A model generated the notes under the pieces. It saw nothing but the letters and a program-made list of their open reading frames with translations, did no database searches and had not been told where the DNA came from. 64,000 bases of DNA from contig NC_015496.1 in the NCBI RefSeq assembly GCF_000212355.1, forward strand, positions 930,001-994,000. Direction: 5' to 3'. Of this stretch, positions 1,267 through 63,010 are shown piece by piece. The position numbers and the translations under genes are program-made. Each line of letters begins with the position of its first letter. Positions within the stretch are counted from its first letter, which is position 1. The stretch comes from Dokdonia sp. 4H-3-7-5 (GTDB taxonomy: Bacteria; Bacteroidota; Bacteroidia; Flavobacteriales; Flavobacteriaceae).

Positions 1267-1284
1267 ACGCTTTCGCGAAAGCGT
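1267..1284. repeat. Dispersed palindrome, copy 1 (perfect 18 bp)
   Basis: ACGCTTTCGCGAAAGCGT, intergenic. Its last base is the first base of the receptor gene's stop codon complement, so it abuts the 3' end of that gene. Confidence 0.9.
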
Positions 1285-4064
1285 TAAAAGAAGAATACCC
1301 CACCATCATTTGTTTCTCCTTTTTTTCCTAGCGTATTGAACTTCCAACTTAGGCTAAGCATAAAGTATTGCTCTAATACGGTGCTCTGTACATCTTGTAT
1401 AAAGTTTGCATTTGCAGTACGCCTTGCGTTTGTATTTTGATCTAGTACATCATACACTTTCAAGGTTGCGGTAGCGCGCTCTTTGGCAAATGAATAAGCA
1501 AGTGTCGAGTTCCAAAACACTGCACTTCGCTGAAAATCTGATGCAATGTTTGGGTTGTAATTATAGTTAATATCATTGCGCCATTCCCAATTTTTGGGAA
1601 CAAACAAAGCCGTTCCCAATGAAACATTATGAGATATGAAATCTTGATCTTCAAATGCGTCTAGACCAAATTGAGTTTTTGAAATCGAGATGTTATAACT
1701 AGGCCTAACCTCAAATAACTTTTTCCATGTGTATGTAAAATTTATACGTGGCGTAAGTGATCTCGTTTTACTAGCATATTGCACTTCGTTATTAAAGTTT
1801 ACGTTACGTCCAAAGTTCGTGTAAATACCTCCGCCATATTTTATACTACGTAAGGAATCTATTTTTACATTCTTATTATAACCTCCTCCTGCTCCTACGC
1901 TATAATTACCATTTACGTTTACATAAGTAGTGCGACTTACTAGGTTATTATCTATGGTCGTTTTACGCACAATAGCATCGTTTGTAAACCTTCCATTTCC
2001 ATTGAGATACCACCCTCCTCCTTTTTGGAAATCATAATTATTAAATCCTCCATAAAAATTGTAATCATTTGATGGAGCAAGGTTAGGATTACCTTCCACA
2101 ATATTAAGTGGGTCTGACACATCTACAAATGGATTGAGCTGCGTGACTTCTGGAGGTCTGTTGCTCTTACCTAAACTTGCATACATAGATGCTTTAGGGC
2201 TAAACCTGTAATTTACGTACGTATCAAGTTCTAAAGCTTCAAAATTTTGTTTGATATCTAGTTCTGGGCGCAAGTTGTCGTTATTCTCTAAGGTGCGAAA
2301 AACGTATCCTGCACTTACGTTTACATTTAGTTTCTCATTGTCGTAATTAAGTCCGAGCTTAGGCGTTGTGCGCGAATTACGACCTTCAAAGTCTGTACTT
2401 AATTCTTGATTGAGAATAGCATATTGCTGTGTTACCTCATCAAAGTCAAAGGTGCTTCGCTTGCGCTTTCTACTATCGCTACGGTGACCAAAATCTACAT
2501 CAAGGAATAACTTTTTGGCAACTAAAGGAACTCTATATGTGAGGTTGAGATTATAACCGTCAAGTTTAGTTTCTCCATCTGTAAACTGATTACGATTAAT
2601 TACTGACGGGTTATCGCCAAATATCTCTGTGTTTGACACTATAAAGTCTTCACTCTCTTGTCTATTGATTTCGTTTTGTACACGTGCTCTCACATAAGCT
2701 CCTTTGTCTCCCCATTTCTTGGTAACACTTAAGGTGTTTTCAAAATTCTTCCCCTCGTCTGTTACAAAGTTGTTTGTTGCCGACTCATTGATTCTCTCAC
2801 CGTCTTCATTAAGTGACTCCTCTGTACGGCGGAAGCGCGTCTCACTATTTGCAAAAGAGAATTTGGGCTTGATATTAATGAGTAGTGTAGAATCCTTTTT
2901 AATATTGATAGTGGTATTAATACTATGGTTATCTGAGTTTGAGTCATTACGAGAATCACTGTTTGTAAAAAACCGTCTGTCTGGTAAAATATTCTCCCGC
3001 TCTACACGAGTCTCATCAAAAGAGTTTGCAGCCGAGTAGAAATAATCCATATTGGCATCAAATCCTTTTGCATACTCATCTGTATAATTTGCTCCTACAC
3101 TGCGGCTATTTACAATTCCTTGTCCACCTCCAAAGCTCCTTCCGTCAATACCAAAGCTTCCGTTGCCATTAAAGTAAACGCTTCTTCCTCCTCCAAACAT
3201 TTTTCTTATCTCTCCAAAACTAAACCCAGCTGAGTTGATATTGTTACCACCAGCAAGCACGCTGATGCGTCGCTCGTTATCAAAAGCATTTACAATACCT
3301 GCATATTCAAAACGATTATCTGTCCCACCACCAGCAGCCACTCTACCAAAGACTCCTTTATTTTTTTCTTCTGAGATAGTGAGATTGATAGTCTTACTCT
3401 CTTGATCACCATCTTCGCCTGCAAAAGCCTCATCGTCTGTCTTAGTATCTACTACTTGTATTTTCTCTACGATTTCTTTAGTGAGGTTGCGCGTAGCAAT
3501 CGTAGGGTCATCGCCAAAGAACGGCTTACCATTAACTAGAATTTTATTTACTTCCTTACCATTTACTAAAATCTTGCCGCTTTCATCTACCTCAACGCCT
3601 GGCAGCTCCTTAAGCAAGTCCTCAATATTTGCATCTTTCTTAGTTTTAAAAGAAGAAACATTAAACTCTAACGTGTCTTTTTTTACGGTTACCGGAGCTC
3701 TACTTTTTACAATAACTTCGCCCAAGGTGTTTGTAGAAGGTGCTACCTCTATATCTCCAAGCACAATATCACCCGTACTTAAATCTACATTTTTTGTAAA
3801 GTTCTCATAACCCAGAAAGGAGATATTTACACGTGCATCTTTCTCTTGTGCGCGACCTTCTAGTTGAAAAAACCCCTCTTGGTTTGTAATCGTATACGTA
3901 ATGAGTGTACTGTCTTTTACGGTCTCTAAAAATACCGTTGCTGCTTCCAGCGTTTGTTTTGAATCCTTGTCTTTAAGAGTTCCAGTAATTGAAAAGTTTT
4001 GCGCCTGCATAGCTACAGATAAGAATAGCCCTATCGCAAGGAGTACTAGTTGATTAATTCGCAT
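1284..4064 (-). CDS. TonB-dependent outer-membrane receptor with N-terminal carboxypeptidase-regulatory-like domain
   Basis: This 926-residue protein begins with a signal peptide (about residues 1-21, ending AMQAQ). A carboxypeptidase-regulatory-like beta-sandwich follows (about 24-105). Next is a plug-like segment with the motif LLKELPGVEVDESGKI and NKILVNGKPFFGDDP (about 145-190). The remainder is rich in alternating aromatic and polar residues and typical of the 'outer membrane beta-barrel family' found in Bacteroidota. Its likely role is uptake of a large or scarce ligand across the outer membrane, or an outer-membrane function without TonB, since a TonB box is not obvious. No SusD-like gene is adjacent, so a polysaccharide utilisation locus is not supported. 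The 3' end touches a palindrome copy. The ligand is unknown. Confidence 0.85.
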   Translation of the reverse strand: MRINQLVLLAIGLFLSVAMQAQNFSITGTLKDKDSKQTLEAATVFLETVKDSTLITYTITNQEGFFQLEGRAQEKDARVNISFLGYENFTKNVDLSTGDIVLGDIEVAPSTNTLGEVIVKSRAPVTVKKDTLEFNVSSFKTKKDANIEDLLKELPGVEVDESGKILVNGKEVNKILVNGKPFFGDDPTIATRNLTKEIVEKIQVVDTKTDDEAFAGEDGDQESKTINLTISEEKNKGVFGRVAAGGGTDNRFEYAGIVNAFDNERRISVLAGGNNINSAGFSFGEIRKMFGGGRSVYFNGNGSFGIDGRSFGGGQGIVNSRSVGANYTDEYAKGFDANMDYFYSAANSFDETRVERENILPDRRFFTNSDSRNDSNSDNHSINTTINIKKDSTLLINIKPKFSFANSETRFRRTEESLNEDGERINESATNNFVTDEGKNFENTLSVTKKWGDKGAYVRARVQNEINRQESEDFIVSNTEIFGDNPSVINRNQFTDGETKLDGYNLNLTYRVPLVAKKLFLDVDFGHRSDSRKRKRSTFDFDEVTQQYAILNQELSTDFEGRNSRTTPKLGLNYDNEKLNVNVSAGYVFRTLENNDNLRPELDIKQNFEALELDTYVNYRFSPKASMYASLGKSNRPPEVTQLNPFVDVSDPLNIVEGNPNLAPSNDYNFYGGFNNYDFQKGGGWYLNGNGRFTNDAIVRKTTIDNNLVSRTTYVNVNGNYSVGAGGGYNKNVKIDSLRSIKYGGGIYTNFGRNVNFNNEVQYASKTRSLTPRINFTYTWKKLFEVRPSYNISISKTQFGLDAFEDQDFISHNVSLGTALFVPKNWEWRNDINYNYNPNIASDFQRSAVFWNSTLAYSFAKERATATLKVYDVLDQNTNARRTANANFIQDVQSTVLEQYFMLSLSWKFNTLGKKGETNDGGVFFF

Positions 4065-4253
4065 TATAAACAGCTGATTGATTGATGTCTATCAAATAAA
4101 CAATGATTACTTCCAAATGCTATGCTTCTAGTGGGATTTTAATAAAAATTTAACACGCTCTTCTCTTGGAATCTTAAACACATAACAGATTATTAACTCA
4201 TACAAGAATAAGAGTGATGTAAGTTTACATCACTAACCCTTAAACCAATTATC

Positions 4254-8101: not shown

Positions 8102-8119
8102 TAGCTTTCGCGAAAGTAA
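8102..8119. repeat. Dispersed palindrome, copy 2
   Basis: TAGCTTTCGCGAAAGTAA: exact 10-bp core with shortened symmetry. It lies in the region between the divergent DUF2797 and GH3 genes, about 40 bases from each start. Confidence 0.85.
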
Positions 8120-9739: not shown

Positions 9740-9757
9740 ACGCTTTCGCGAAAGCGT
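9740..9757. repeat. Dispersed palindrome, copy 3 (perfect 18 bp)
   Basis: ACGCTTTCGCGAAAGCGT, intergenic between the convergent GH3 and clpX genes, about 70 bases after the GH3 stop. There is no T tract on either side, so it is not a standard terminator; a separate one lies at 9811-9840. Confidence 0.9.
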
Positions 9758-11121: not shown

Positions 11122-11139
11122 ACGCTTTCGCGAAAGCAT
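11122..11139. repeat. Dispersed palindrome, copy 4
   Basis: ACGCTTTCGCGAAAGCAT, in the short clpP-clpX spacer. If the two genes are cotranscribed the mRNA would carry an eight-bp GC-rich hairpin here. Confidence 0.88.
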
Positions 11140-13674: not shown

Positions 13675-13692
13675 ACGCTTTCGCGAAAGCGT
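13675..13692. repeat. Dispersed palindrome, copy 5 (perfect 18 bp)
   Basis: ACGCTTTCGCGAAAGCGT, with further symmetry outward (TT before, AA after). Intergenic, 20 bases upstream of the membrane protein start at 13654 and just before the terminator at 13707-13735. Confidence 0.9.
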
Positions 13693-16755: not shown

Positions 16756-17520
16756 TTATAAAAAATTTATCACTTCTTTGTAAAAATCTTTAGGATTTTC
16801 TGCATGAAGCCAGTGACCAGCGTTTGAAATGGTAGTTAATTGCGCTTTCGCGAAAGCGTTATAAAGACCTTTTTCATCCTCGTTAAGAATATAATTAGAC
16901 CTATCTCCTCTTAAAAAAAGCACCTCTCCTCCATATGAAACTCTGTCTGGAAGTGCTTTTCCTATTTGTTCTATATTTCCTATAAGCGCTTTGAGGTTCA
17001 TTCTAAAACCAAGAACGCCCTTTTCTTTCCAATAAAGGTTTTTGAGCAAAAACATTCTCGTACCATCATCTGTAATATATTGCGAAAGAAAATCATCTGC
17101 TCCTGAACGACTCGTCATTGCTGGAGCATCATTTGACAAGGCAGTTAGTCCCTCAAGAATGGTCTGATGATGTTGTGGATATTGTTTTACACCTATATCT
17201 GCTATGATTAATTTCTTTACCATATTTGGATGTGTAGTGGCATAAAGCATAGCAACCTTACCTCCCATTGAGTGTCCAAGCAAATAGAATTCTTCAAGTT
17301 CATTTTCTAAACAATAAGACTTGAGGTCTTCTACCATTAATTCATAGCTAAACTCGTCACTGTGAAAACTACGACCATGATTACGCTGGTCCACAAGGTG
17401 CACTTGAAAACCATCTTCTGCAAATTGTTTTGATAGTGTTTTCCAGTTATCACCCATCCCTAGAAAGCCGTGTAATATGACGAGAGGCTCACCTTCCCCT
17501 ATGATATTAGAATGCAACAT
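16756..17520 (-). CDS. Alpha/beta-hydrolase (YbfF-like esterase)
   Basis: A 254-residue alpha/beta-hydrolase. HGFLGMGDNW near residue 17 gives the oxyanion region and GHSMGG at about 83-88 the nucleophile Ser; a late His sits in NAGHWLH at about 235-241. DQRNHGRSFHS is also typical of this subfamily. The substrate is unknown; YbfF-type enzymes hydrolyse small acyl esters. A palindrome copy encodes the peptide NAFAKAQ at about residues 221-227, between the last strand regions, where the family varies in length. The gene starts three bases after the pdxJ stop codon, so both are in one operon. Confidence 0.85.
   Translation of the reverse strand: MLHSNIIGEGEPLVILHGFLGMGDNWKTLSKQFAEDGFQVHLVDQRNHGRSFHSDEFSYELMVEDLKSYCLENELEEFYLLGHSMGGKVAMLYATTHPNMVKKLIIADIGVKQYPQHHQTILEGLTALSNDAPAMTSRSGADDFLSQYITDDGTRMFLLKNLYWKEKGVLGFRMNLKALIGNIEQIGKALPDRVSYGGEVLFLRGDRSNYILNEDEKGLYNAFAKAQLTTISNAGHWLHAENPKDFYKEVINFL
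16842..16859. repeat. Dispersed palindrome, copy 6, inside the alpha/beta-hydrolase gene
   Basis: GCGCTTTCGCGAAAGCGT. Read in frame as AFAKA in the hydrolase. Confidence 0.9.
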
Positions 17521-19919: not shown

Positions 19920-19937
19920 ACGCTTTCGCGAAAGCGT
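19920..19937. repeat. Dispersed palindrome, copy 7 (perfect 18 bp)
   Basis: ACGCTTTCGCGAAAGCGT with flanking TT and AA extending the symmetry. Intergenic between nadK and the porG-like gene, about 33 bases upstream of the -33 element at 19970. Confidence 0.9.
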
Positions 19938-25723: not shown

Positions 25724-26530
25724 ATGCAACACAAAGGTAACATTGGACTTTTTGATAGTGGTATAGGCGGCACTTCCATCTGGAAAGAAGTAGTCACACA
25801 CCTACCGTATGAAAACACCATATACCTTGCCGATAGTAAGCATGCTCCTTACGGTGCAAAATCAAAAGAGGAAATAATTGCGCTATCTGTAAAAAACACA
25901 GAAAAGCTTATACAACTAGGCGCAAAAATTATTGTTGTTGCTTGCAATACCGCAACCACTAACGCCATTGACTACCTCAGGAAAAATTATGACATCCCAT
26001 TTATAGGTATTGAACCAGCTATCAAGCCTGCGGCACTCAATTCTAAAAATAAGACCATTGGTATTCTAGCGACCAAAGGAACGCTAAACAGCACTCTATT
26101 TCAAGATACTTCAGAAAAATGGACACAGGGAACTAAAGTTATAGAAGTTATAGGAGAAGGCCTCGTACCGCTTATTGAGAGGGGAGATCTTGAGAGTTCC
26201 GTTTTAAAAGAACTTCTTAAGTCATATGTAGCTCCTATGATTACCCAGAAAATCGATTATCTGGTTTTAGGATGCAGTCACTATCCATACCTCATCCCGC
26301 TTCTAACTGAGTTATTACCTGAAGAAGTTACTATCATAGATTCTGGACTAGCCGTTGCTCGCCAGACTAAGTCTGTTCTTACAGAAATAAAAGCCTTGGA
26401 AACTGCAACGACTGGAAATCATCAATTATTTACAAATGGGGATCCCAGTATTTTAAAAAAAGTATTAGTACGCTTTCGCGAAAGCGTAACACCTCCACTT
26501 GATATCACTATCAAGAAACTTGATTTTTAG
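25724..26530 (+). CDS. murI: Glutamate racemase
   Basis: 268 residues. The two catalytic cysteines are in place: Cys74 in VVACNTATTNA and Cys184 in LGCSHYPYL. The N-terminal FDSGIGG is at 10-16. The enzyme makes D-glutamate for peptidoglycan. A perfect palindrome copy is read in frame near the C-terminus as R-F-R-E-S (250-254), a stretch that is not part of the active site. The start is just after the terminator at 25683-25712, so the gene either has its own promoter inside the hairpin region or relies on read-through; an alternative start is not obvious. It converges on the LytTR regulator gene with nine bases between stops. Confidence 0.96.
   Translation: MQHKGNIGLFDSGIGGTSIWKEVVTHLPYENTIYLADSKHAPYGAKSKEEIIALSVKNTEKLIQLGAKIIVVACNTATTNAIDYLRKNYDIPFIGIEPAIKPAALNSKNKTIGILATKGTLNSTLFQDTSEKWTQGTKVIEVIGEGLVPLIERGDLESSVLKELLKSYVAPMITQKIDYLVLGCSHYPYLIPLLTELLPEEVTIIDSGLAVARQTKSVLTEIKALETATTGNHQLFTNGDPSILKKVLVRFRESVTPPLDITIKKLDF
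26470..26487. repeat. Dispersed palindrome, copy 8 (perfect 18 bp), inside murI
   Basis: ACGCTTTCGCGAAAGCGT, read as FRES near the C-terminus of glutamate racemase. Confidence 0.92.
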
Positions 26531-35488: not shown

Positions 35489-36250
35489 CTACATTTTGAG
35501 ATAGAAGTCTTTAACTAGAGAAATGTAGTCATCTGTATAATCTTGACGTTTATACTCAATAGTAAGTTCTGTGGTGTTTGGTACGCTTTCGCGAAAGCGG
35601 AACTCCATCAAACTCCTTTTAATAGGCGAAGTTGGGTTCCCCTTTACTCGTGTAATTCTAGAGGGAAATAAACCAGCACGAGAACATAACAATATAAAGT
35701 CATCCTCCCTTTCATGAGGAATAATCACACTAAACGCCCCATCTTCTGATAGTAACTTTGCCACGGCACCTACGAGTAATTCAAAAGGCATTGACTCTTC
35801 TAAGCGTGCTTGTTCTCTAGCTTCTATAGCTGCTCCATCTTTAATAGAACGTGAACGCTGCAACGCTGTAGACTCATCATTGAGCGTTTCCATATAAAAG
35901 GGTGGATTGCAGACAATGAGGTCGTACTCATCATCTATCTCTGCTGCAAATTCGTATAAATGCGCATGATAACAAAAGAGTCTGTCTCCCCACACACTAT
36001 TTTCAAAGTTATCTGCGGCCTGCTCATAAGCGCTATCATCTAGCTCTACAGCGTCTACAGTCATAGCATCACTGCGTTGCGCAAGCATTAATGCGATAAC
36101 ACCAGTACCAGTGCCTATATCTAATATACTATCTGGATACTGAGCCACTGAAGTCCAAGCGCCAAGCAATACACCATCTGTGCCTATTTTCATAGCGCAG
36201 CGATTTTGGGCTACCGTAAATTCTTTAAATTGAAAAGGTTTTAAAGACAT
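35489..36250 (-). CDS. tRNA1(Val) adenine-37 N6-methyltransferase (TrmN6/YfiC-like)
   Basis: A 253-residue class I methyltransferase. The SAM-binding motif is ILDIGTGTGVIALMLAQ (about 42-58), and the N6-adenine catalytic motif NPPFY is at about 120-124. The N-terminal block FKEFTVAQNRCAMKIGTDGVLLG is diagnostic of the YfiC family. It modifies A37 of tRNA-Val in E. coli. A palindrome copy is read as FRES at about 218-221, in the C-terminal strand region. The gene directly abuts rimM (the stop of rimM is at 36251), so they are in one operon, both concerned with RNA. Confidence 0.88.
   Translation of the reverse strand: MSLKPFQFKEFTVAQNRCAMKIGTDGVLLGAWTSVAQYPDSILDIGTGTGVIALMLAQRSDAMTVDAVELDDSAYEQAADNFENSVWGDRLFCYHAHLYEFAAEIDDEYDLIVCNPPFYMETLNDESTALQRSRSIKDGAAIEAREQARLEESMPFELLVGAVAKLLSEDGAFSVIIPHEREDDFILLCSRAGLFPSRITRVKGNPTSPIKRSLMEFRFRESVPNTTELTIEYKRQDYTDDYISLVKDFYLKM
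35583..35600. repeat. Dispersed palindrome, copy 10, inside the trmN6-like gene
   Basis: ACGCTTTCGCGAAAGCGG, read in frame as FRES in EFRFRESVPNT. Confidence 0.9.
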
Positions 36251-39398: not shown

Positions 39399-42300
39399 AT
39401 GTACCTTATTTTTGACACCGAAACCACAGGACTTCCTAAAAACTGGAATGCTCCACTTACAGACTCAGATAACTGGCCTAGAGCGATTCAAATCGCTTGG
39501 CAGTTACACGATGAGATGGGTAACGTCATAGAGCATCAAGATTATCTTATCAAGCCAGATGGATTTGATATTCCTTATGATGCAGAGCGCATACACGGCA
39601 TCTCCACAGCACTTGCCGAAAGAGACGGAATTGAACTTTCCGAAGTACTCTCAAAATTTAATATTGCACTTTCAAAATCAAAGTATGTTGTAGGTCAGAA
39701 TGTTGGTTTTGATACAAATATCATGGGAGCCGAGTTTCACAGACTCAACATAGGTAATGATCTTCAAGAGTTACCAGTGCTAGACACTTGTACAGAAAAA
39801 ACAGCGACATTGTGCCAGCTACCTGGAGGACGTGGTGGTAAATTTAAATTACCTACGCTTACAGAATTACACAAACACCTGTTTGGCGAAGGATTTGGTG
39901 AGGCGCACAATGCCACGGCAGATGTGGAGGCAACTACTCGTTGCTTTCTAGAGCTTATACGCCAGCGAGTTTACACAAAAGAAGAGCTAGACGTTGCGCC
40001 AGATTATTTTGAAAGATTCTCTCAATCTAATCCGCAGCCTATTACTTTTATTGGGCTTAAGCACATAAATCTTAAGAAAGCTTCTGCAAAAATTGCTCAA
40101 GCGCTCGCTGCTCAAGATGATACTCCAGAAATTTCTAAGGCAGAGATAGAAGAAAATAAAGAACAACTTTCTGATGTAAAGTTTGCTCACCTTCACAACC
40201 ACTCTCAGTTCTCTATATTACAATCTACTGCGAGCGTTCAAGATATTGTAAAAGCCGCTGCACTACATAAAATGCCTGCTGTCGCTATGACAGACATGGG
40301 TAACATGATGGGGGCTTTTCACTTTACAAAAGCGGTAAAAAGTCATAACGCTTTCGCGAAAGCGGAAAATGCAAAACTCACAGAAGCAGGAGAAGCAGAA
40401 GAGCATGTACCACTTAAAGCCATCATAGGTTGTGAGTTTAATGTATGTGTTGATCACAAAAACAAGAGCCAAAAGGACAATGGATACCAGATTGTCATTT
40501 TAGCCAAAAATAAAAACGGATATCAAAACCTCTGTAAAATGGCTTCTATAGCCTACACAGATGGTTTTTATTACGTTCCTCGTATAGACAAGCAAGTTAT
40601 TGAGCAGTACAAAGAAGATCTTATTGTACTTACCGGAAATCTATATGGTGAAGTGCCAAGTAAGATTCTTAATGTAGGAGAAAAACAAGCCGAAGAGGCC
40701 CTTATTTGGTGGAAAGAACAATTTGGTGACGACCTTTATGTTGAGATCATGCGTCACGGGCAAGAAGATGAAGATCGTGTGATGCCTGTTTTAATTACGC
40801 TTTCGCGAAAGCATGATGTAAAACTTATCGCGTCTAACAATACATTCTACATTGATAAGTCTGATGCAGATGCGCATGATGTTTTATTATGTGTAAAAGA
40901 TGGTGAAAAAGTAGCCACCCCAAAAGGTCGCGGTAGAGGATATCGTTTTGGATTACCTAATGACGAATACTACTTTAAGAGTGCAGATGAGATGAAAACG
41001 CTCTTTGCAGATGTACCTGAAGCCATTCTTAATGTACAGGAGGTAGTAAATAAAATCGAATCTTACGAGCTTGCTCGTGACGTACTTCTTCCTGCATTTG
41101 ACATTCCAGAAGAATTTGTTTCTCCAGAAGATGCTATTGACGGAGGAAAACAAGGTGAAAATGCATTTCTGAAACATCTTGTTTATGAAGGAGCAAAAAA
41201 GCGTTACGGAGAAGAACTCTCTGAAGAAGTTATAGAGCGCCTAGACTTTGAGCTAGATGTTATTGAAAAGACGGGTTACCCTGGATACTTTCTGATTGTA
41301 GAGGATTTTATACGAGAAGCTCGTAATATGGACGTTTCGGTAGGTCCAGGACGTGGATCTGCAGCGGGATCTGTGGCAGCATACTGTTTATGGATTACAA
41401 ATATTGATCCGCTTAAGTATGATTTACTTTTTGAGCGTTTCTTAAATCCGGATCGTGTAAGTATGCCCGATATTGATATTGACTTTGATGATGAAGGTCG
41501 CGGGCGAGTAATGCAATATGTAATTGACAAATACGGCGCAAATCAAGTAGCACAGATTATCACTTACGGTACTATGGCTGCAAAGTCATCCATACGTGAC
41601 ACCTCCAGAGCACTAGATTTATCCCTAGGTGATGCAGATAGAATAGCTAAGCTCATCCCTACGATGAGTAAGCTTAGAAAGATTTTTGGTAAAACAGATG
41701 CAGAGCTACGTAGTGCTTTTAGGTCTGACGATTTACCTAAAGTTCAAGAACTAATTACACTAGAACAAGCAGATAATCTTGAAGGGCAGATGCTACGTCA
41801 AGCAAGACAGCTTGAAGGATCTGTGCGTAACACGGGAATTCATGCCTGTGGGGTAATTATCACACCTAGTGATATTACAAATTTTGTTCCTGTAGCACTT
41901 GCAAAAGATTCTGATCTCTACGTAACACAATTTGATAACTCCGTCGTAGAGGAAGCTGGGCTACTTAAAATGGACTTCTTGGGTCTGAAGACACTTACTT
42001 TAATAAAAGACACTGTAAAGCTCGTGAAGTATCGTCACGACGTAGATCTCGATCCAGAGAGTTTTCCTCTTGACGATGAGAAAACATATGAACTTTTCCA
42101 GCGTGGTGATACTGTAGGTATATTTCAATATGAATCACCTGGGATGCAAAAGCACATGCAATCGCTCAAACCTACCGTGTTTGAGGATCTAATTGCAATG
42201 AATGCATTATATCGTCCTGGGCCTATGGAATATATCCCATCTTTCGTAAGAAGAAAGCACGGGGAAGAAGAGATAGAATATGACCTTCCTGCCATGGAAG

Positions 42301-44674: not shown

Positions 44675-46585
44675 ATGAAACGTGATGTATCATTCCTCTT
44701 TTTAATTGTTTTATTTTGCTCAACTTCAAGCCTTAGTTTTGCATCAAACGTATCGCAATTAGATAGCATAATTAAGTACAGAAAAATAAGTGAAGACAAG
44801 AAGTTATCGATAGGTGAAAGGATTAAAGCTATAGATAGCGCGATATACCTAGCACAAAACGCAACAGACTCAACATTACTATCTCAACTTGCCTATAAAA
44901 CTAGAATCTATAGTAATGGAAAAGATTACGATAGTGCCATTACACAAACTAGATTACTACTAGATAAGTCCAAAACATTAAACAATGCATATTATCAAGC
45001 TATAGCATACAATAAACTAGGCTGGTATCTCAATGTAAAGCAAGAACCTATACCAGCTTTTACATCTTATGTAAAGGCCATTGATCTCTTTGCAGAGGTA
45101 GGAGATAGCTTAAGTGTTATCAAGGTTTCCAAAAGAGCAAGCTTTATTCAAGCAGATCAAGGAGATTACGACGGAGCAGAGTATACAATAGTTAATGCTT
45201 TAAAATATGGCGATGCTGTAAAAAACATATCAGAATTAGCATGGCTCTATGATATTTTAGGCAGAGTATATCGTCAGCGTGCACTTTGGGAAGAGGCTGT
45301 AAACTATCATAAAAAAGCACTACAGTTTGAAGATAGCCCCGTATCGAAAGCTTCATTGTTGAATAATTATGGATTGACTTTAATACTTGCAGGTAATTTT
45401 GAAGAAGCGATTATACAACTTGAGATTGCTCTTGGATATGGAGAAGTAATAAGCAAGAATACGAGACTAAGACTTTTAGATAACTTTGCTTTCGCGAAAG
45501 GGAAACTCGACGATCCAACAGCTATTAGCCTTCTTGAACAAGTGTTATTATCAAGAGGAAAAATAAATGACATAGATGGAGAATATGCAAGTAATATGCA
45601 TCTCTCAGAAATTCACAAAAGCAGAGGTAATAATGAAAAGTCACGGTTCCATGCACAAGAAGCATATGACCTTGCATTAAAATTAAACAACCCACAAGCT
45701 GTTATTAAAGCGCTCGATCTTTTAATTCCCGTCACAAGGAAATCTTCCTCTTTATTTGAAGAATATGTAGTTTTATCAGACTCCCTAAAGAATGCTCAAA
45801 ACAAAGCCAAGTTTGAATTTGCTAAGCTTCGTTATGATGTAGAAAAAGCAGAGGAGAGAGAATCTATTGCGATACAGTCACAATCTGCTAGTAAACAAAG
45901 AGAGGAAACGGCTGTGAGAAAACGTAACTGGGCCTTAACAGCACTTCTTGGACTTGGTCTACTAGCCTTTTTCTGGATATTATATCAAAAAGAGCGCTCA
46001 AAGAAACAACGCCTACAAGATCAATACAATACTGAGAAACGTTTGGCCAAAAAACTCCACGATGAGTTGGCCAATGAAATTTATTTAGTCATGTCACAAC
46101 TGGAAAGTGACACCACCACACCTCAAGTATCCGAAAAATTAGATCATATTTATAAGATGAGTAGGGATTTATCTAGAGAGACGCAACCCATACAAACAGA
46201 TAGCACATTCCCCAAGGCACTATCTATGAGTTTGCAAACATATATCACAGCGCATAGAAAATTAATTTTGAAAGGCCTAGAATCTGTGCAATGGGACTTA
46301 ATAGCTCCTACAAAAAAAGTGGAAATTTATCGTGTTTTACAAGAGCTTATGACTAATATGAGGAAGCATAGCAAAGCCTCCTTTATAGCATTAGTTTTTA
46401 AACACGAAGACAATATTCTTACTATCAATTACAGTGACAATGGAGTTGGAACAACATTATCACCAGATAAGCGAAATGCTGGACTTAATAATATTGAATC
46501 TCGAATAGATGCTATAAACGGTCAAATCACTTTTGAATCTAAGTTGAATGAAGGATTTAGAGCAGCACTTACTGTTACTACATAA
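44675..46585 (+). CDS. TPR-containing sensor histidine kinase
   Basis: 636 residues from the ATG at 44675 (a TTG at 44660 is less likely since the signal peptide begins at MKRDVSFLFLIVLF). Periplasmic TPR repeats span about 60-370, a membrane helix is at about 425-443 (WALTALLGLGLLAFFWIL), and the cytoplasmic kinase follows. The His box is KKLHDELANEIYLVMSQL with His462, of the NarX/DegS-like (HisKA_3) type. The ATPase domain has LQELMTNMRKHSKA and NYSDNGVGT and ends at about 636. A palindrome copy encodes FAFAKGK at about 271-277. Its partner is the response regulator ten bases downstream. Confidence 0.88.
   Translation: MKRDVSFLFLIVLFCSTSSLSFASNVSQLDSIIKYRKISEDKKLSIGERIKAIDSAIYLAQNATDSTLLSQLAYKTRIYSNGKDYDSAITQTRLLLDKSKTLNNAYYQAIAYNKLGWYLNVKQEPIPAFTSYVKAIDLFAEVGDSLSVIKVSKRASFIQADQGDYDGAEYTIVNALKYGDAVKNISELAWLYDILGRVYRQRALWEEAVNYHKKALQFEDSPVSKASLLNNYGLTLILAGNFEEAIIQLEIALGYGEVISKNTRLRLLDNFAFAKGKLDDPTAISLLEQVLLSRGKINDIDGEYASNMHLSEIHKSRGNNEKSRFHAQEAYDLALKLNNPQAVIKALDLLIPVTRKSSSLFEEYVVLSDSLKNAQNKAKFEFAKLRYDVEKAEERESIAIQSQSASKQREETAVRKRNWALTALLGLGLLAFFWILYQKERSKKQRLQDQYNTEKRLAKKLHDELANEIYLVMSQLESDTTTPQVSEKLDHIYKMSRDLSRETQPIQTDSTFPKALSMSLQTYITAHRKLILKGLESVQWDLIAPTKKVEIYRVLQELMTNMRKHSKASFIALVFKHEDNILTINYSDNGVGTTLSPDKRNAGLNNIESRIDAINGQITFESKLNEGFRAALTVTT
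45486..45503. repeat. Dispersed palindrome, copy 13, inside the TPR kinase gene
   Basis: TTGCTTTCGCGAAAGGGA: exact core with weaker flanks, read as AFAK. Confidence 0.88.
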
Positions 46586-48815: not shown

Positions 48816-48833
48816 ACGCTTTCGCGAAAGCGG
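48816..48833. repeat. Dispersed palindrome, copy 14
   Basis: ACGCTTTCGCGAAAGCGG, intergenic between sucA and sucB, 14 bases before the sucB start. Confidence 0.9.
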
Positions 48834-48912: not shown

Positions 48913-51660
48913 TTATTTTAATGTTGCGTCAAAAACGCTATCTATTACTTTTTTATGACGTGCTTTTGATCTTGTACTACTACCTGCAGCTGGTGAAGCA
49001 TACACGCGGCGTGAGGCTACTCTAAGTTTTACTTGCTCAAAATTCATAAGCATGTAACCCCAAGCTCCCATATTCTTAGGCTCTTCTTGTGCCCATACGT
49101 AATCTGTTACATTCGGGTAGCTAGCAATAATCTCTTCTAGTTGTTTTTGTGGTAATGGGAATAGTTGCTCGATACGCACTAACGCGACATCTTCACGCTC
49201 ATTTTCTGTACGTCGCTCTAATAAATCGTAATAGAACTTACCTGTACAAAATACGAGAGATGTAACCTTCTTCTTATCTACAGTTACATCATCAAAAACT
49301 TCCTGGAAGCTTCCAGTCGCAAGTTCTTCTTTACTACTTACTACTAGAGGATGTCTCAATAATGATTTAGGTGTAAAGACAACGAGTGGCTTTCTAAAAT
49401 TCCACTTCATCTGGCGACGTAGCAGGTGAAAAAAGTTTGCTGGCGTCGTTACATCTGCCATGATTAAGTTATCTGTAGCACATAGCTGAAGATAACGTTC
49501 CATACGAGCACTTGAATGCTCAGAACCTTGTCCTTCATATCCATGAGGCAATAACATTACAAGACCATTCTGTGTCTTCCACTTAGACTCTGCAGCGCTT
49601 ATGTATTGATCTAACATAATCTGAGCACCATTTGAAAAATCTCCAAACTGAGCTTCCCAGATTGTAAGCGTTTTTGGAGATGCCATTGCATAACCATAAT
49701 CAAAACCTACAACACCATACTCAGAAAGTAGTGAGTTGTAAATATCCATTCTACCTTCAACACCTAAGCGATTGTGAAGATTAATCTCCTCAACATCATC
49801 TTCTGTCTTAATAATAGCATGACGGTGAGAGAACGTCCCACGCTCTACATCTTGACCAGATATACGCACATTAAAACCTTCTTCCATTAATGAGCCATAA
49901 GCAAGTAACTCGCCCATACCCCAGTCTAACTTATTAGTCTCTCTATATTGTTTATTACGGTCTGCTACAATACGCTGTATCTTACGTATAAATTTTTTAT
50001 CCTCAGGGAGCTTTGTAATACCATCTGCAATGGTATCAAGCTTTTTCTGATCATAAGTAGTATCGATAGGAGCAAGAATATCTTCTCTACTACCTAACTC
50101 ATACCCTTCCCAGTCATCTGCAAGAATCTCAGTAATGACTGTTTTATCTTTTTTACGAGACTCCTCTAGATCTTCTTCTAGATCGTCTTTATATTCTTTT
50201 TCTAGTTGCTTTACATGACCATCTTGTATAACACCTTCTTTGATAAGGCGCTCAGCATAGATATCTCTTGGGCTTGCATGTTTAGCAATTGCTTTATATA
50301 ACAATGGCTGAGTAAAACGTGGCTCATCACCTTCATTGTGTCCATACTTACGATATCCTAAAATATCTACAAACACATCACGACCAAATTTCATTCTAAA
50401 ATCCAATGCAAATGCAAATGCATGACATACAGACTCTACATCATCTCCATTTACGTGTAGTACTGGTGACAGTGTAACTTTACCTACATCTGTACTATAA
50501 GTAGATGATCTTGCGTCAAGATAGTTTGTTGTAAAACCTACTTGGTTATTTGCTACAATATGGATAGTTCCTCCAGTACGGTAACCTTCTAACTGTGCCA
50601 TTTGCACAATCTCATATACAATCCCTTGCCCAGCTACTGCGGCATCACCGTGTATTGCTATAGGTAATATTTTCTTTTCGTCTCCACCTAATTGATTATC
50701 AATCTTAGCACGAGACATTCCTTCTATTACTGCTCCTACAGTCTCGAGGTGAGACGGATTAGGCGCTAGATCCATACGGATTTTTTCTCCTTTACTGCTT
50801 TCGCGAAAGCTCGTCCAACCCATGTGATATTTTACATCACCATCAAAAAGTTCATCTTCTGCATATTCCTTACCGTCAAATTCTGAGAAAATTGCCTCCG
50901 GCGATTTTCCGAAGATATTTGCAAGAACGTTAAGACGTCCACGGTGAGCCATCCCCACTACAAACTGTTCGATTCCATTATCTGAGCCACGCTCGATAAG
51001 CGTGTCTAATCCAGGAATCATAGCGTCAAGTCCTTCAACAGAAAAACGTTTTTGACCTACATATTTAGAATGTAAAAATCCTTCAAAAGAAGCTGTTTGA
51101 TTAAGCTTTTTAAGAATATGTTTTTTCTCTTCGGCAGAGAATTCTGGGTGATTATCGTTTTTGTTAAGCCAGTTTTGTATCCACGCAATCTCTTCTGGGT
51201 TGCGTATATACATATACTCTATCCCGATGTGATCGCAGTAAATAGCTTCAAGGTGATTAACAATTTCGCGTAAGCTAGTTCTACCTAGACCTAAAATAGA
51301 TCCAGCCTCAAACTGTAAAGTCATATCAGCTTGTGACAACCCGAAGTTTTCTATTTCAAGAGTAGGTGCGTACTTACGACGTTCACGCACAGGGTTTGTT
51401 TTCGTAAAGAGGTGACCTCTGTTACGATAAGCATCAATCAATTTTACAATTTGAAACTCCTTCTGTATTGCTTCTGGAATAGCAGCTGGAGTTGTTCCTG
51501 AATCGTCAGAAACTGGCTCAGCATTCTCCATTCCAAAGTCAAAACCTTGGAAAAAAGCGCGCCAGCTAGCTTCTACACTATCTGGATTTAATAAATATTG
51601 ATCGTAAAGCTCAGCAAAGTGAGCGGTATGTGCGGCATTCAGAAATGAAAATCTATCCAT
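48913..51660 (-). CDS. sucA: 2-oxoglutarate dehydrogenase E1 component
   Basis: About 915 residues from the ATG at 51660, which starts at MDRFSFLNAAHTAHFAELY, the usual SucA beginning. The reading frame is open for 90 codons further upstream but that part shares no homology and crosses the promoter. The TPP-binding fold contains the GMAHRGRLNVL and HGDAAVAGQGIVYE motifs, HNEGDEPRFTQPLLYK in the middle, and LLPHGYEGQGSEHSSAR in the C-terminal half. It decarboxylates 2-oxoglutarate and passes the succinyl group to SucB. A palindrome copy is read as FRES at about 284-287. The -7 box is at 51699-51706. Confidence 0.97.
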   Translation of the reverse strand: MDRFSFLNAAHTAHFAELYDQYLLNPDSVEASWRAFFQGFDFGMENAEPVSDDSGTTPAAIPEAIQKEFQIVKLIDAYRNRGHLFTKTNPVRERRKYAPTLEIENFGLSQADMTLQFEAGSILGLGRTSLREIVNHLEAIYCDHIGIEYMYIRNPEEIAWIQNWLNKNDNHPEFSAEEKKHILKKLNQTASFEGFLHSKYVGQKRFSVEGLDAMIPGLDTLIERGSDNGIEQFVVGMAHRGRLNVLANIFGKSPEAIFSEFDGKEYAEDELFDGDVKYHMGWTSFRESSKGEKIRMDLAPNPSHLETVGAVIEGMSRAKIDNQLGGDEKKILPIAIHGDAAVAGQGIVYEIVQMAQLEGYRTGGTIHIVANNQVGFTTNYLDARSSTYSTDVGKVTLSPVLHVNGDDVESVCHAFAFALDFRMKFGRDVFVDILGYRKYGHNEGDEPRFTQPLLYKAIAKHASPRDIYAERLIKEGVIQDGHVKQLEKEYKDDLEEDLEESRKKDKTVITEILADDWEGYELGSREDILAPIDTTYDQKKLDTIADGITKLPEDKKFIRKIQRIVADRNKQYRETNKLDWGMGELLAYGSLMEEGFNVRISGQDVERGTFSHRHAIIKTEDDVEEINLHNRLGVEGRMDIYNSLLSEYGVVGFDYGYAMASPKTLTIWEAQFGDFSNGAQIMLDQYISAAESKWKTQNGLVMLLPHGYEGQGSEHSSARMERYLQLCATDNLIMADVTTPANFFHLLRRQMKWNFRKPLVVFTPKSLLRHPLVVSSKEELATGSFQEVFDDVTVDKKKVTSLVFCTGKFYYDLLERRTENEREDVALVRIEQLFPLPQKQLEEIIASYPNVTDYVWAQEEPKNMGAWGYMLMNFEQVKLRVASRRVYASPAAGSSTRSKARHKKVIDSVFDATLK
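50795..50812. repeat. Dispersed palindrome, copy 15, inside sucA
   Basis: CTGCTTTCGCGAAAGCTC: exact 14-bp GCTTTCGCGAAAGC, read as FRES in TSFRESSKGEK. Confidence 0.9.
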
Positions 51661-53523: not shown

Positions 53524-55649
53524 TAGTTCATCATAATTTCTAGAAGACCTATTGCAGCCTCACTAATTTTTGTTCCAGGTCCAAAAACTGCCGCAGCACC
53601 AGCATCAAACAGAAATTGATAATCTTGTTGAGGAATCACCCCACCTACAATCACCATAATATCAGGCCTACCTAACGCCTTCAATTCTTCAATTACTTGA
53701 GGCACTAATGTTTTGTGACCTGCAGCAAGTGATGATACTCCCAGAATGTGAACATCATTTTCCACCGCTTGTTTTGCTGCTTCCTTAGGTGTTTGAAATA
53801 ACGGACCAATATCCACATCAAACCCTATATCTGCATATCCAGTTGCTACTACTTTGGCGCCACGGTCGTGACCGTCTTGCCCCATTTTGGCAACCATAAT
53901 TCTTGGACGGCGTCCATCTTGTTCGGCAAATTGGTTTGCGAGTTGTTGCGCTTTCGCGAAAGCGGGATCTTGTTTCATCTCTTTACTATATACACCACTA
54001 AAGGATTGGATTTGTGCTTTGTGTCTTCCATATACATCTTCCAGCGCATCTGAAATTTCTCCTAATGTTGCTCGCTCCTGTGCAGCTGTAACCGCCAGCG
54101 CAAGTAAATTATCATTACCCGTGCGAGCCGCTTCTGTAAGTGCTTCGAGGGCTTTTTTTACATTTTCGGTATTACGAGCTTCTCTAATGTCTGCTAAACG
54201 CTTAAGCTGCCCTTCTCTTACTTTTGTATTATCTACATCAAGAATATCTAGGTGCTCATCTTCTGTAGGTCGGTATTTATTTACTCCTACAATAATATCT
54301 TGAGCACTGTCTATACGTGCCTGTTTTCTAGCTGCAGCCTCTTCAATACGTAGTTTAGGAATCCCTGCCTCAATCGCTTTAGTCATTCCGCCTAGCTCCT
54401 CAACCTCTTCAATAAGCTCCCAAGCCCTTTGAGCAATATCATCTGTAAGTGACTCTACATAATAACTGCCAGCCCAAGGATCTACTGTTTTTGTAATATG
54501 AGTTTCTTGTTGTAAGAATATCTGTGTGTTTCTAGCAATACGCGCAGAAAAGTCTGTAGGTAAGGCAATAGCCTCATCTAAGGCATTTGTGTGCAAACTC
54601 TGTGTGCCTCCAAAGGCAGCTGCAGCTGCTTCAATGGTAGTACGAGCCACATTATTAAAAGGATCTTGTTCTGTAAGGCTCCACCCACTTGTCTGACAGT
54701 GCGTTCTAAGCGCTAATGATTTAGGGTTTTTAGGATTAAATTGCTTTACAATTTTTGCCCATAGCATACGTGCTGCACGCATTTTGGCAACTTCCATAAA
54801 GTGGTTCATTCCTATTGCCCAGAAAAAAGATAATCTTGGCGCAAAGCTATCAATATCCATTCCTGCAGCGAGTCCAGTTTTAATATACTCTAGACCATCT
54901 GCAAGTGTATAAGCAAGTTCTATATCACAAGTAGCACCGGCTTCTTGCATATGGTATCCTGAGATAGATATACTATTAAATTTAGGCATGTTTGCAGCCG
55001 TATATTCAAATATATCTGAGATAATTCTCATTGAAGGAGTAGGTGGATATATGTACGTGTTGCGCACCATAAACTCCTTCAAAATGTCATTTTGTATGGT
55101 TCCAGAAAGTAATGCTGGATCCACTCCTTGCTCTTGTGCTGCTACAATGTAAAACGCCATAATAGGTAACACGGCACCATTCATAGTCATGGACACAGAC
55201 ATCTTGTCTAATGGAATCTGATCAAAGAGGATTTTCATGTCCTCTACAGAATCTATGGCAACACCTGCTTTGCCTACATCTCCCACCACACGCTCATGAT
55301 CACTATCATAACCGCGGTGTGTAGCAAGATCAAATGCAACCGAAAGCCCTTTTTGACCAGCAGCGAGATTACGGCGATAAAATGCATTACTATCTTCGGC
55401 AGTTGAGAAACCTGCATACTGACGTATCGTCCAAGGACGTCTTACGTACATAGTACTGTAAGGACCTCGTAAATTAGGGGCGACACCTGCGATAAAATCA
55501 AGATGCTCTAATCCTTTTACATCGTCCTTTGTATAGCGAGACTTTACATCAATCTTCTCTGCAGTTGTAGTAAGGTTAACTTCTGCAATTGAAGATAAAT
55601 TTTCTTCTTGAGAAGAAAGTGTGATATGTTGAATATTTCTTCTACTCAT
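53523..55649 (-). CDS. scpA: Methylmalonyl-CoA mutase, large (catalytic) subunit
   Basis: The 708 residues are the usual length of the cobalamin-bearing subunit. The substrate barrel (about 50-420) has [20 protein letters not shown] and the family motif [12 protein letters not shown]. The C-terminal B12-binding domain (about 580-708) has GQDGHDRG (592-597 core DGHDRG) with the cobalt-binding His594, then GADIGFDVD and GGVIP. It interconverts methylmalonyl-CoA and succinyl-CoA, used for propionate degradation or synthesis. A palindrome copy is read as AFAKA in [10 protein letters not shown] at about 564-568, in the linker before the B12 domain. Its start overlaps the upstream lipoprotein gene by eight bases. 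Confidence 0.97.
53948..53965. repeat. Dispersed palindrome, copy 16, inside scpA
   Basis: GCGCTTTCGCGAAAGCGG, read as AFAKA in the linker between the barrel and the B12 domain. Confidence 0.9.
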
Positions 55650-56226: not shown

Positions 56227-56230
56227 ATGA

Positions 56231-57589
56231 TTACTTTTCTGCTTTAATGCGTTCTTGTTCTAATGATTCGGCTAGGCGTTTTGGAATTATAGGCTCAAGC
56301 AATGTTTTACGAGGGTTAATTTTTACAAAAGGATAAATTTCTAACTCACCTTTCATAACGTCTTTTGGATTAGGGTGCTTATTTGTTCCTAGAAGAATGA
56401 GCTCTCCTTCGTCAAACTTAGCCTGCTCCTTTGCAGCACTTTCTTTTATCTTTCGTTGTATGGTTCCTTCTTTAAGTTGTCTCAAAAATCCTCCTTGCGC
56501 TTCTATATCTTTATAAAGCGTAAGTGCTTTTTCAGCCAATTGCGAGGTAAGCTCTTCTACATAATAAGAACCATCTGCAGGGTTTTGAACTACATCAAAA
56601 TAGCTTTCTTCTTTGAGAACAATGAGCTGGTTACGAGATATGCGCTGTCCAAAGTTATTGGTCTTGTGATACAATGCATCATACGGCATATTTACCACCC
56701 AGTTTGCGCCACCTAGCACAGCACTCATACATTCCGTTGTGGTGCGCAGCATGTTTATATTATAATCATAAATCGTTTTATTGCGTCTTGATGGGTGCGC
56801 TATAATGTTAATAGCTGCATCCGTATAATTAAATGCAGATAATACTACAGCGGCAAGCTTTCTGAGCGCCCTTAGCTTTGCAATTTCAAAAAAGTAGTTA
56901 GTTCCTACCGCGACTTCAAAAGTGACAATATTTATACTAAGCTTCTCTTTTTCACAATGGTTTAAATATTCGGTAAGATGTGCCATACCGTAAGCCAGTT
57001 GCTGTACCATGGTGGCACCAGCATTTTGATATGAGGTTGTGTCTACAGTAAGTTTGTTTTCTTCTCCCTGTAATAAACTACTTACTATATCGTGATCATT
57101 TTGCAAGTTGTGATACCAGTTACCATCAAGTGCAAGATGATTGATTATATCAAGCTTTGTGGTGATATGATACGCTTTCGCGAAAGCGTGAAAACTTTTA
57201 TAAAAATCTTCATCAAGAAAACTGAGCTCAAAGTAAAGAGGGATATCTTTGTGCTTTAAACCTTTAAATAACTGCTCAAGATCAAACAGCGTATCTGCCT
57301 GAAAGTAAATAGCCTCTGCACCGCTCTCTATAGCTTTATTTGCCGATTGCGCAGACTTAACCGCATCTACAATAAATATTTTCTCCCCAATAAACCATTG
57401 TTCGGGAGCTTCAACAGCTACTGATTCTTTTATTTCATCACTGTGATAAAAAGGTTTTACATGTATTCCTTCTAGACTTTGCCAAACAAGCGTCTCATTG
57501 TAGTCTGCACCCTTCAGGTCAAACTGTATTTTTTGCTTGAAGGCTTTTGCCGAAACTGCGTCAAACTCTGAAAATAAATTAGTCTTCAT
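56231..57589 (-). CDS. mutA: Methylmalonyl-CoA mutase, small subunit
   Basis: About 452 residues from the ATG at 57589 (an in-frame start ten codons upstream overlaps the FtsB-like gene and is not part of the family). It is homologous to the barrel of the large subunit but lacks the B12 domain, as expected for the non-catalytic subunit. Motifs include ETLVWQSLEGIHVKPFY near the start, TTSYQNAGATMVQQLAYG in the middle and RISRNQLIVLKEESYFDVVQ towards the end. A perfect palindrome copy is read as AFAKA at 135-139 (SFHAFAKAYHI). It overlaps the end of the FtsB-like gene by 11 bases. Confidence 0.93.
   Translation of the reverse strand: MKTNLFSEFDAVSAKAFKQKIQFDLKGADYNETLVWQSLEGIHVKPFYHSDEIKESVAVEAPEQWFIGEKIFIVDAVKSAQSANKAIESGAEAIYFQADTLFDLEQLFKGLKHKDIPLYFELSFLDEDFYKSFHAFAKAYHITTKLDIINHLALDGNWYHNLQNDHDIVSSLLQGEENKLTVDTTSYQNAGATMVQQLAYGMAHLTEYLNHCEKEKLSINIVTFEVAVGTNYFFEIAKLRALRKLAAVVLSAFNYTDAAINIIAHPSRRNKTIYDYNINMLRTTTECMSAVLGGANWVVNMPYDALYHKTNNFGQRISRNQLIVLKEESYFDVVQNPADGSYYVEELTSQLAEKALTLYKDIEAQGGFLRQLKEGTIQRKIKESAAKEQAKFDEGELILLGTNKHPNPKDVMKGELEIYPFVKINPRKTLLEPIIPKRLAESLEQERIKAEK
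57172..57189. repeat. Dispersed palindrome, copy 17 (perfect 18 bp), inside mutA
   Basis: ACGCTTTCGCGAAAGCGT, read as AFAKA in the small mutase subunit. Confidence 0.92.
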
Positions 57590-61962: not shown

Positions 61963-61970
61963 CAAAGGTA
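61963..61970 (-). promoter_or_regulatory. Promoter -7 box for hflX
   Basis: TACCTTTG on the minus strand, the same eight bases as at the Nfu gene (33251-33258), five bases before the ATG. Confidence 0.5.
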
Positions 61971-62026
61971 GCAAATGGATTGCAGTCTTTTTGACTAAAT
62001 TGTAACACTCATAGACACTATTCATT

Positions 62027-63010
62027 ATGGAGGATGATTCCGCTTTCGCGAAAGCGCAACAAGAAAAAATACAATGTGCAGTAGGCTTTTACAACCTAGA
62101 AAATCTTTTTGACACGACAAACAACCCAGAAACGCTAGACGACGACTTCACACCGAACGGTTTTAAGGAGTGGAATAGCTATAAGTTTAATAAAAAAATA
62201 GCCAAACTATCAACAGTCATCTCAAACATAGGAAAGGAGGACACTAAGACCTCACCTTCTCTCCTTGGCGTTGCCGAAGTGGAAAATAGATCCGTACTAG
62301 AGTCTCTTATTGCGACAGACAACCTCAAAGATGAAGGTTATGACATTGTTCATTATGACTCCCCAGATGAGCGCGGTATTGATGTTGCTTTATTGTACAA
62401 AAAAGCAGACTTTAAAGTCACGGCAAGTGAACCCATCACACTCTACCTAGAAGCCGAAGAAGGTGGCAGAGATTATACTCGTGATATTCTTTATGTACAA
62501 GGAGAACTTTTAGGAAATCCTGTTCACATACTAGTAAATCACTGGCCTTCCCGAAGATCTGGTGAGAATGAAACCTCACAAAAGCGCATTACAGCAGCAC
62601 AGCGCAATAGGGAAGTTATTGATAAACTCATGAATGAAGACCATAAAGTGAAGATTATCATTATGGGCGATTTTAATGACGGGCCACACAGTGAAAGCGT
62701 AAAAAACAACCTTGTTAAAACGGAGTTTTACAACCCAATGCTGTACTTAGGAACAAGATATGAAGGAAGCTTAAATTATAGATTTGAGTGGTTCATTTTT
62801 GACCAGATAATCTTTTCAAACAATTTTGTACAGCTACACGAAAACACACTTCTTTACGAGAAGTCAGATATTTACAATGACTTTTTCCTCACTGAATATG
62901 AAGGGAAGTTTAAAGGAACACCCTTTCGCACCTATGCAGGAAAAAGATATTTAGGCGGCTATAGTGATCATTTTCCTGTGTATAGTATTTTATCTAAAAG
63001 ACCTGAATAA
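62027..63010 (+). CDS. Endonuclease/exonuclease/phosphatase-family protein
   Basis: The 327 residues have the EEP fold: FYNLENLFDT near residue 23 (Asn and Glu of the first metal site), GVAEVENRSVLE at about 83, NHWPSRRSG at about 172 (His and Trp), MGDFNDGP at about 215 (Asp and Asn) and YSDHFPVY at about 315 (Asp and His). All catalytic positions are present, so it is probably an active phosphodiesterase or nuclease. The first nine codons contain a palindrome copy (EDDSAFAKAQQ), so the N-terminus is built from the repeat. No signal peptide is present and the enzyme would be cytoplasmic, unlike many EEP relatives in this group. Confidence 0.85.
   Translation: MEDDSAFAKAQQEKIQCAVGFYNLENLFDTTNNPETLDDDFTPNGFKEWNSYKFNKKIAKLSTVISNIGKEDTKTSPSLLGVAEVENRSVLESLIATDNLKDEGYDIVHYDSPDERGIDVALLYKKADFKVTASEPITLYLEAEEGGRDYTRDILYVQGELLGNPVHILVNHWPSRRSGENETSQKRITAAQRNREVIDKLMNEDHKVKIIIMGDFNDGPHSESVKNNLVKTEFYNPMLYLGTRYEGSLNYRFEWFIFDQIIFSNNFVQLHENTLLYEKSDIYNDFFLTEYEGKFKGTPFRTYAGKRYLGGYSDHFPVYSILSKRPE
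62040..62057. repeat. Dispersed palindrome, copy 18, at the start of the EEP-family gene
   Basis: CCGCTTTCGCGAAAGCGC, read as AFAKA at codons 6-10, only 13 bases after the start codon. Confidence 0.9.

Follow-up and report, generated by a model that had tools for sequence, protein, structure and literature searches.

Why should a bacterial chromosome carry one short palindrome again and again, at nearly even distances? The question is raised by a 64,000-nucleotide stretch of the Dokdonia sp. 4H-3-7-5 chromosome (NC_015496.1, positions 930,001 to 994,000; hereafter the window), where the 10-bp palindrome TTTCGCGAAA is present 18 times. We observed that this word is over-represented and regularly spaced, that its core is under purifying selection, that it is built of independent half-sites, that it is confined to three genera among the sampled genomes, and that it is also present in phages. 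From this pattern we infer a dimeric protein and its job: the palindrome is predicted to be the two-fold symmetric site of a protein with a role in the organisation or upkeep of the chromosome, a reading of which we are about half convinced.

All 18 positions listed in a preliminary description of the window carry the exact word, and dinucleotide shuffles (n = 100) gave a mean of 0.07 copies and a maximum of 1. The G+C content, estimated there at about 37%, was measured as 37.3%, and the mean gap of 3,575 bases agrees with the earlier figure of about one copy per 3.5 kb. The 18-bp form ACGCTTTCGCGAAAGCGT is perfect in six window copies, as had been stated, and 15 of the 18 match it with at most three mismatches, in line with the claim that most copies extend this far. 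The over-representation is not a local one. In the whole-genome count that had been proposed as a check, the Dokdonia genome (G000; 3,389,993 bases in one contig, within which the window is C1:930001-994000) contained 1,012 copies of TTTCGCGAAA (1 per 3.35 kb) compared to 10 of a reversed control word, a difference of ∼100 times. The 18-mer was present 229 times and its control not once.

The consensus of 149 sites (464 kb) consists of the strict TTTCGCGAAA, followed outward by GC (∼0.9 each), C (0.77), A (0.57), T and T. From ∼6 to 20 bases out on the 5' side, the fraction of C falls to 0.03–0.13, compared to ∼0.15 further out, and the DNA is G/T-rich; the 3' flank is the mirror image. This bias was seen both inside genes and in intergenic DNA. 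The fraction of C in the flank was 0.067 by an intact GC arm (264 sides), 0.122 by a lost arm (34 sides) and 0.149 distally. The same arms and flank bias were observed in a second site-rich genus, g11, and in phage records, and more weakly in a third genus, g210. Among 253 sites (824 kb), 193 had both GC arms, 59 had one and a single site had none; the combinations were near independence, which predicts ∼3.7 armless sites. Side-to-side complementarity at 20 positions was no different from that expected under permutation (z −2.3 to +1.1), and the folding energy was −12.3 kcal/mol with a site's own flanks and −12.5 kcal/mol with swapped ones. As the two sides do not covary and the swap of flanks leaves folding unchanged, the sequences indicate that the symmetry comes from two half-sites that are read independently, as a dimeric protein would read them, and not from a stem. 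The outward symmetry reported earlier therefore holds in the consensus (ATTACGC...GCGTAAT), but not as covariation of the two sides in individual copies.

The even spread of the copies proved to be stronger than had been claimed. The coefficient of variation (CV) of the gaps was 0.53 in 824 kb of the Dokdonia genome, compared to 1.02 ± 0.06 in a null of 2,000 simulations that kept the observed rates of genes, convergent intergenic DNA and other intergenic DNA; none of the 2,000 was as regular. Gaps below 1 kb made up 10.7% of the total, where the null gave 34%. Five other genomes of the genus had gap CVs of 0.46–0.66 (80 kb each). Consistent with this regularity, each of 38 20-kb bins held 2 to 10 copies, with a variance-to-mean ratio of 0.53 (bin dispersion P 0.0025). 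The closest pair that we saw, 33 bases apart, lies between two open reading frames (ORFs) of the genome G016 (L333 5679 and 5712). Among the roles listed in the preliminary description, a selected site resembling a protein-binding one stands in kind, while two of the specific proposals lose ground. Segregation in the style of ParB, Noc or MatP is weakened by the presence of 2–10 sites in every bin and by the lack of a ParB paralogue that tracks the site, and pilus-driven DNA uptake is weakened by the lack of any PF00437 match over the cut-off in the Dokdonia genome.

By our own home-made gene model, 129 of the 253 sites are genic, at a density of 0.18 per kb compared to 1.20 per kb between genes, and convergent intergenic DNA is the densest class (3.16 per kb, compared to 1.08–1.24 in the other intergenic classes). 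The favoured reading frame of the genic sites gives AFAKA (72 of 129), and several genic copies were seen by eye within N-terminal, signal-peptide-like stretches. A palindrome enriched between convergent genes could also be a hairpin, a transcription terminator or an element of the repetitive extragenic palindromic (REP) type, acting as RNA or DNA. However, about half of the copies are genic, and the T before and A after the word are the reverse of a terminator: at least 6 T were present in the next 10 bases of 2 of the 253 sites and in the preceding 10 bases of 27. These reversed flanks, together with the missing covariation and the equal folding after the swap, refute this as a general account, and we give it almost no credence. 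A strand asymmetry of the sites after stop codons, seen as a signal in a first sample, was gone in the larger data (P 0.21).

Comparison with orthologous DNA indicated that the core is under purifying selection, even within an essential gene. In the alignable cases, window cores were intact in 18 of 18 comparisons with G008, 15 of 17 with G007, 11 of 16 with G016 and 10 of 13 with G004, while control 10-mers 35–290 bases away were intact in 66, 34, 17 and 8%, respectively (P 5e-4 to 3e-9). The gene for DNA polymerase III alpha, dnaE (ORF 39399-43790), carries two sites, one at 40348..40365 (core at 40352) and one at 40797..40814 (core at 40801, codons LSRKH). Across 16 genomes, 114 of its 1,463 codons are invariant, and the sole run of at least four, CTT TCG CGA AAG CAT (five codons), is the 40801 site. 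This core is intact in 17 of the 17 genus genomes whose contigs cover the position (those of G001 do not), and at this position the 11 outgroup dnaE genes examined differ in both codons and amino acids. A core was present at the same place in G230 (g210) and G433 (g11); two other g11 genomes had none at this place, but one elsewhere in dnaE.

The 40352 site is present in some species of the genus and absent in others, and the two states differ by several base changes with the length unchanged. The gains and losses in dnaE are thus substitutions, and the copies have no arms of the transposon kind, which bears out the earlier view that the word is neither a transposon nor a miniature inverted-repeat transposable element (MITE). 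In G007, whose DnaE is 97% identical to that of G000, the site is missing and the stretch around 40352 is identical to that of G016 and G003. To judge by these sequences, this looks like recombination between species.

Decayed copies are few. In 824 kb we found 54 one-mismatch cores (28.9 expected) beside the 253 perfect ones, a small excess, and only 6 with both GC arms beside 193 perfect. The ratio of the one-mismatch excess to the perfect excess is 0.10; the values that we computed from the table of PMC1939737 are 1.98 for the uptake word of Actinobacillus pleuropneumoniae, 6.2 for Chi of Escherichia coli and 0.30 for the HIP word of Synechocystis, a comparison that is rough as the word lengths differ. 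A spread driven by mutation or repair is weakened, since it does not predict even spacing and since one-mismatch copies are so few. The same evidence bears on a word of the HIP1 kind, which would be made and kept by methylation-linked mismatch repair and have little function of its own. The Dokdonia word is, as HIP1 is, a dispersed high-copy palindrome, and such repair has been proposed for HIP1 (Elhai 2015, PMC4390886). However, a sequence-autonomous process predicts neither the even spacing nor the codon-level conservation in dnaE, and TCGCGA is not enriched outside the cores (22 copies in the window, of which 18 are inside cores; 4.6 expected in all). We therefore regard an origin of this kind as quite improbable.

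The taxonomic spread is narrow, and the count in related flavobacteria suggested earlier as a check showed a word confined to a few flavobacterial genera, three in the genomes sampled. All 18 genomes searched in the Dokdonia genus had 481–1,195 copies of TTTCGCGAAA. The family was sampled with 397 genomes from 237 genera. Six of them exceeded 100 copies, namely two of the genus itself, three of g11 (595, 648 and 700) and a single g210 genome (559); none of the remaining 391 had more than 34. The 14-mer GCTTTCGCGAAAGC occurred 757 times in G000 and at most 6 times elsewhere among 395 genomes drawn from the phylum, a draw that held no further member of the three site-rich genera. No copy was present in dnaE loci of up to 24.5 kb each from 79 further genomes, either named or metagenome-assembled (MAGs); the Leeuwenhoekiella locus has none in 24.4 kb. 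The DnaE tree places g210 together with Leeuwenhoekiella and Dokdonia and g11 elsewhere, and a Dokdonia MAG, the named record with the closest DnaE (93%), falls inside the genus group. It follows from the patchy distribution and this tree that the trait has been lost, or gained or transferred more than once. As g11 stands apart from Dokdonia and g210 in this tree, transfer between genera could have occurred, the protein gene moving first and the sites building up afterwards.

Palindromes comparable to this one were not found in the 24-kb dnaE loci of other genera (loci below 14 kb excluded); weak ones included TAAAGCTTTA, with 3 copies in L104, and 8-mers in L044, L050 and L082. The genome G183 has a different repeat, AAAATWTTTTCGCGAAAGACAGACAYAAAC-like, three times just after ORFs (L325 5221, 9604 and 11201). 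It includes the 10-mer, without the GC arms and without C-poor flanks.

The sites are not restricted to chromosomes. Virus contigs were scanned with the 14-mer, and 24 of the 80 listed loci, picked for low G+C or several copies, were examined: 9 records had 3–8 copies, 2 had two and 13 had one. Two of these records, G440 and G458, are not independent, as three G440 copies are at the same positions as in G458. Family matches confirmed two as phages: G458, 37.4 kb long with 8 copies, has genes for a Mu-like transposase, a transposition protein, a portal and a terminase, and G437 for a tail sheath, a baseplate and a major head protein. These Mu-like and related contractile-tail phages (L302 and L304, respectively) probably have their hosts in the site-rich genera. 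The 18 sites in five 20-kb phage parts had arms and a flank bias of the same form. In site-poor genera, well-formed sites also occurred in local clusters, for example in G200 (C1:311-327 kb) and in G141, and we read these as acquired islands. The ORFs around such clusters (L323, L324, L330 and L331) looked efflux operon-like by eye. Sites on these apparently acquired operons could serve to trace donors.

The aforementioned data can be put together as follows. The complete site would span ∼50 bp: the 10-bp core is strict, GC(GT) arms flank it on both sides, and 5' of it each strand has ∼20 bp poor in C. Its reader would most simply be a homodimeric (or two-headed) sequence-specific DNA-binding protein, and selection would give every resident DNA, chromosome or phage, one site per few kilobases. 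The job would be chromosome organisation or maintenance, with a nucleoid or repair protein anchored at the site or loaded there. Such a role is our first choice because of the even density, the lack of polarity and the preference for convergent intergenic DNA. More tentatively, the sites might form a sequence-programmed, evenly spaced scaffold, in which the dimeric protein of the three genera binds roughly once per 3.3 kb. Selected on all resident DNA, including phages, the word would then act as a self-address by which DNA is packed or repaired.

Several observations weigh against a dedicated organising site. The finding of at least one arm on 252 of the 253 sites is near the independent-arm expectation and therefore calls for no separate rule, and the genic and intergenic figures rest on a gene model made by ourselves. 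Only 12 of 23 sites have both arms in g210, and one-mismatch copies with both arms intact are commoner outside Dokdonia (6 beside 31 perfect in g11, 5 beside 12 in g210); from the weaker arms and the more decayed copies, maintenance in g210 looks looser. Finally, we found no binding protein: four families (ParB_N, RecC, KilA-N and T2SSE) fail to track the site, methyltransferases and AddAB not having been searched.

The candidates fared as follows. ParB_N, the mark of a ParB or Noc paralogue, gave a single match in most genomes of either kind: 8 of the 9 site-rich, with two matches in G010, and 9 of the 11 site-poor. RecC (PF04257) was absent from all 22 genomes searched, site-positive and site-negative alike. 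KilA-N was absent from the 9 site-rich genomes, its sole match being in the Leeuwenhoekiella genome of L034. For the type IV pilus ATPase family (T2SSE, PF00437), matches above the cut-off came from 5 of 14 site-rich genomes and 2 of 17 site-poor genomes, 7 of 31 in total. LexA was rejected on its Bacteroidetes motifs, given in PMC8565304 as GGA-N5-TCC and CTAA-N5-TTAG. A similarity comparison of the G000 proteins with the g11 and g210 stretches, which has little power, gave no candidate partner. We found no canonical parS with at most three mismatches in 20 parB loci (3.3 kb) or in four 20-kb parB regions; the examined G000 stretches held one parS-like sequence, with 2 mismatches, and no shared palindrome stood out in the site-poor parB regions. 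In the ParB recognition helix (L282-L301), VGK is followed by N in the Dokdonia group and g210 and by S in g11, which covers all 9 site-rich genomes. Of the 11 site-poor genomes, 10 have K at this position and G024 has N. This residue may simply follow the clade or may reflect a changed ParB specificity.

The flanks and the density of the sites would also suit a Chi-like control of recombination. Here an AddAB-type nuclease/helicase, or its stopper, would recognise the site whichever side it arrives from, and the 5' DNA of each strand, rich in G/T and poor in C, would become a RecA-loaded 3' tail. One site per 3.35 kb is near the density of Chi in E. coli, for which PMC1939737 tabulates 1,008 copies in 4.64 Mb, and the flank bias is present on both strands and in intergenic DNA too. 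Even spacing and phage copies fit a need for one site per few kilobases, and the half-sites are independent, as if one arm served each direction. However, the strict dyad-symmetric core is unlike any Chi known to us. One-armed sites were not oriented with respect to the replichores (16 left and 12 right in one, 16 and 15 in the other), with replichore limits guessed from a coarse GC skew; RecC is missing, AddAB not having been searched; and the one-mismatch ratio of Chi is ∼6, far from that of this word. In addition, titles cited in PMC3763553 ascribe the GT islands around E. coli Chi to codon use. On this balance we consider Chi-like control unlikely, though it is the strongest of the rival readings.

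As in Neisseria and Haemophilus, biased transformation (molecular drive) could maintain the word as a signal for DNA uptake. This would account for a long, over-specified word confined to few genera, for the intergenic enrichment, and for the dnaE segment that apparently moved between members of the genus. The spacing, too, tells against our preferred reading here, as even spacing is reported for DNA uptake words in PMC1939737. However, the same paper describes uptake words as non-palindromic, and the one-mismatch ratio of the Actinobacillus word is 1.98, compared to 0.10 here. Conservation in an essential gene exceeds what an uptake bias needs, and the pilus ATPase family has no match over the cut-off in G000 and one in only 5 of 14 site-rich genomes, pilus-free uptake not having been tested. 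We hold an uptake word to be distinctly unlikely.

The other 16 window sites show the same mixture of settings. Perfect 18-mers lie just downstream of the stop of a minus-strand ORF (site 1, 1267..1284; ORF 1284-4064), between the convergent ORFs 8159-9670 and 9864-11096 (site 3, 9740..9757), in DNA that is intergenic by the gene model (site 5, 13675..13692), in tandem intergenic DNA (site 7, 19920..19937) and close to the 3' end of an Asp/Glu racemase family ORF (site 8, 26470..26487; ORF 25724-26530). The sixth, site 17 (57172..57189), is within ORF 56231-57619, the second of an adjacent pair of methylmalonyl-CoA mutase ORFs (53523-57619); the first, with the B12-binding domain (53523-55649), holds site 16 (53948..53965), so that each has one internal site. 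Site 2 (8104..8117), with the GC arm on the left only, is between divergent ORFs, and sites 4 (11122..11139) and 14 (48816..48833) are in tandem intergenic DNA. Within genes are site 6 (16842..16859; alpha/beta hydrolase ORF 16756-17520, frame AFAKA), site 9 (29764..29781; N-terminal part of the VWA domain protein ORF 29646-30854, ...YAFAKAEKN), site 10 (35583..35600; ORF 35489-36250 with a small methyltransferase domain, MTS), site 13, again with the left GC arm only (45488..45501; ORF 44660-46585, matching TPR and HATPase_c), site 15 (50797..50810; ORF 48913-51930) and site 18 (62040..62057), which lies at codons 5–10 of the Exo_endo_phos_3 ORF 62027-63010 (MEDDSAFAKAQQE).

To our knowledge, few kinds of genome-wide DNA words exist (Chi, uptake words and HIP1), and HIP1 has no settled function. 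The Dokdonia word thus belongs to a familiar class, but we found no description of it in the open-licence literature. Neither of the two outcomes that the preliminary description gave as refuting has come about: the genome count is ∼100 times that of the control word, and our searches gave no element described for Dokdonia. None of the papers found to print the letters concerned such a bacterial genome word, as judged by title and the start of the abstract. What it offers is clear selection, even spacing, readable half-sites, an on/off contrast between sister genera, and copies in phages. Its binding partner would tell a programmed periodic scaffold from a bidirectional repair stop or another role.

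Among known systems, the parS, Noc-binding and matS sites are likewise palindromic, dimer-bound, chromosomal, and both genic and intergenic, but they number in the tens within defined domains, whereas the Dokdonia word has about a thousand copies chromosome-wide. HIP1 shares with it the short, lineage-specific palindrome over the whole chromosome, genic and intergenic; its word, however, is GCGATCGC or a GC-rich alternate, and the Dokdonia core TTTCGCGAAA differs in its strict 10 bp, graded arms, C-poor flanks, even spacing and a one-mismatch ratio a third of that of HIP1 (Synechocystis, from the PMC1939737 table). The DNA uptake sequences (DUS) of Neisseriaceae and uptake signal sequences (USS) of Pasteurellaceae are also genus-level words with hundreds to thousands of copies, conserved flanks and even spacing (PMC1939737), but are non-palindromic with many one-mismatch forms; the Dokdonia word is the opposite in both respects, in a genome with no pilus ATPase match over the cut-off. 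Chi sequences resemble it in their density of about one per 3–5 kb, in being genus-specific and in their G/T-rich 5' DNA. Chi, however, is a short polar word, while the Dokdonia word is a dyad with no orientation bias found, and RecC is absent from all 22 genomes searched.

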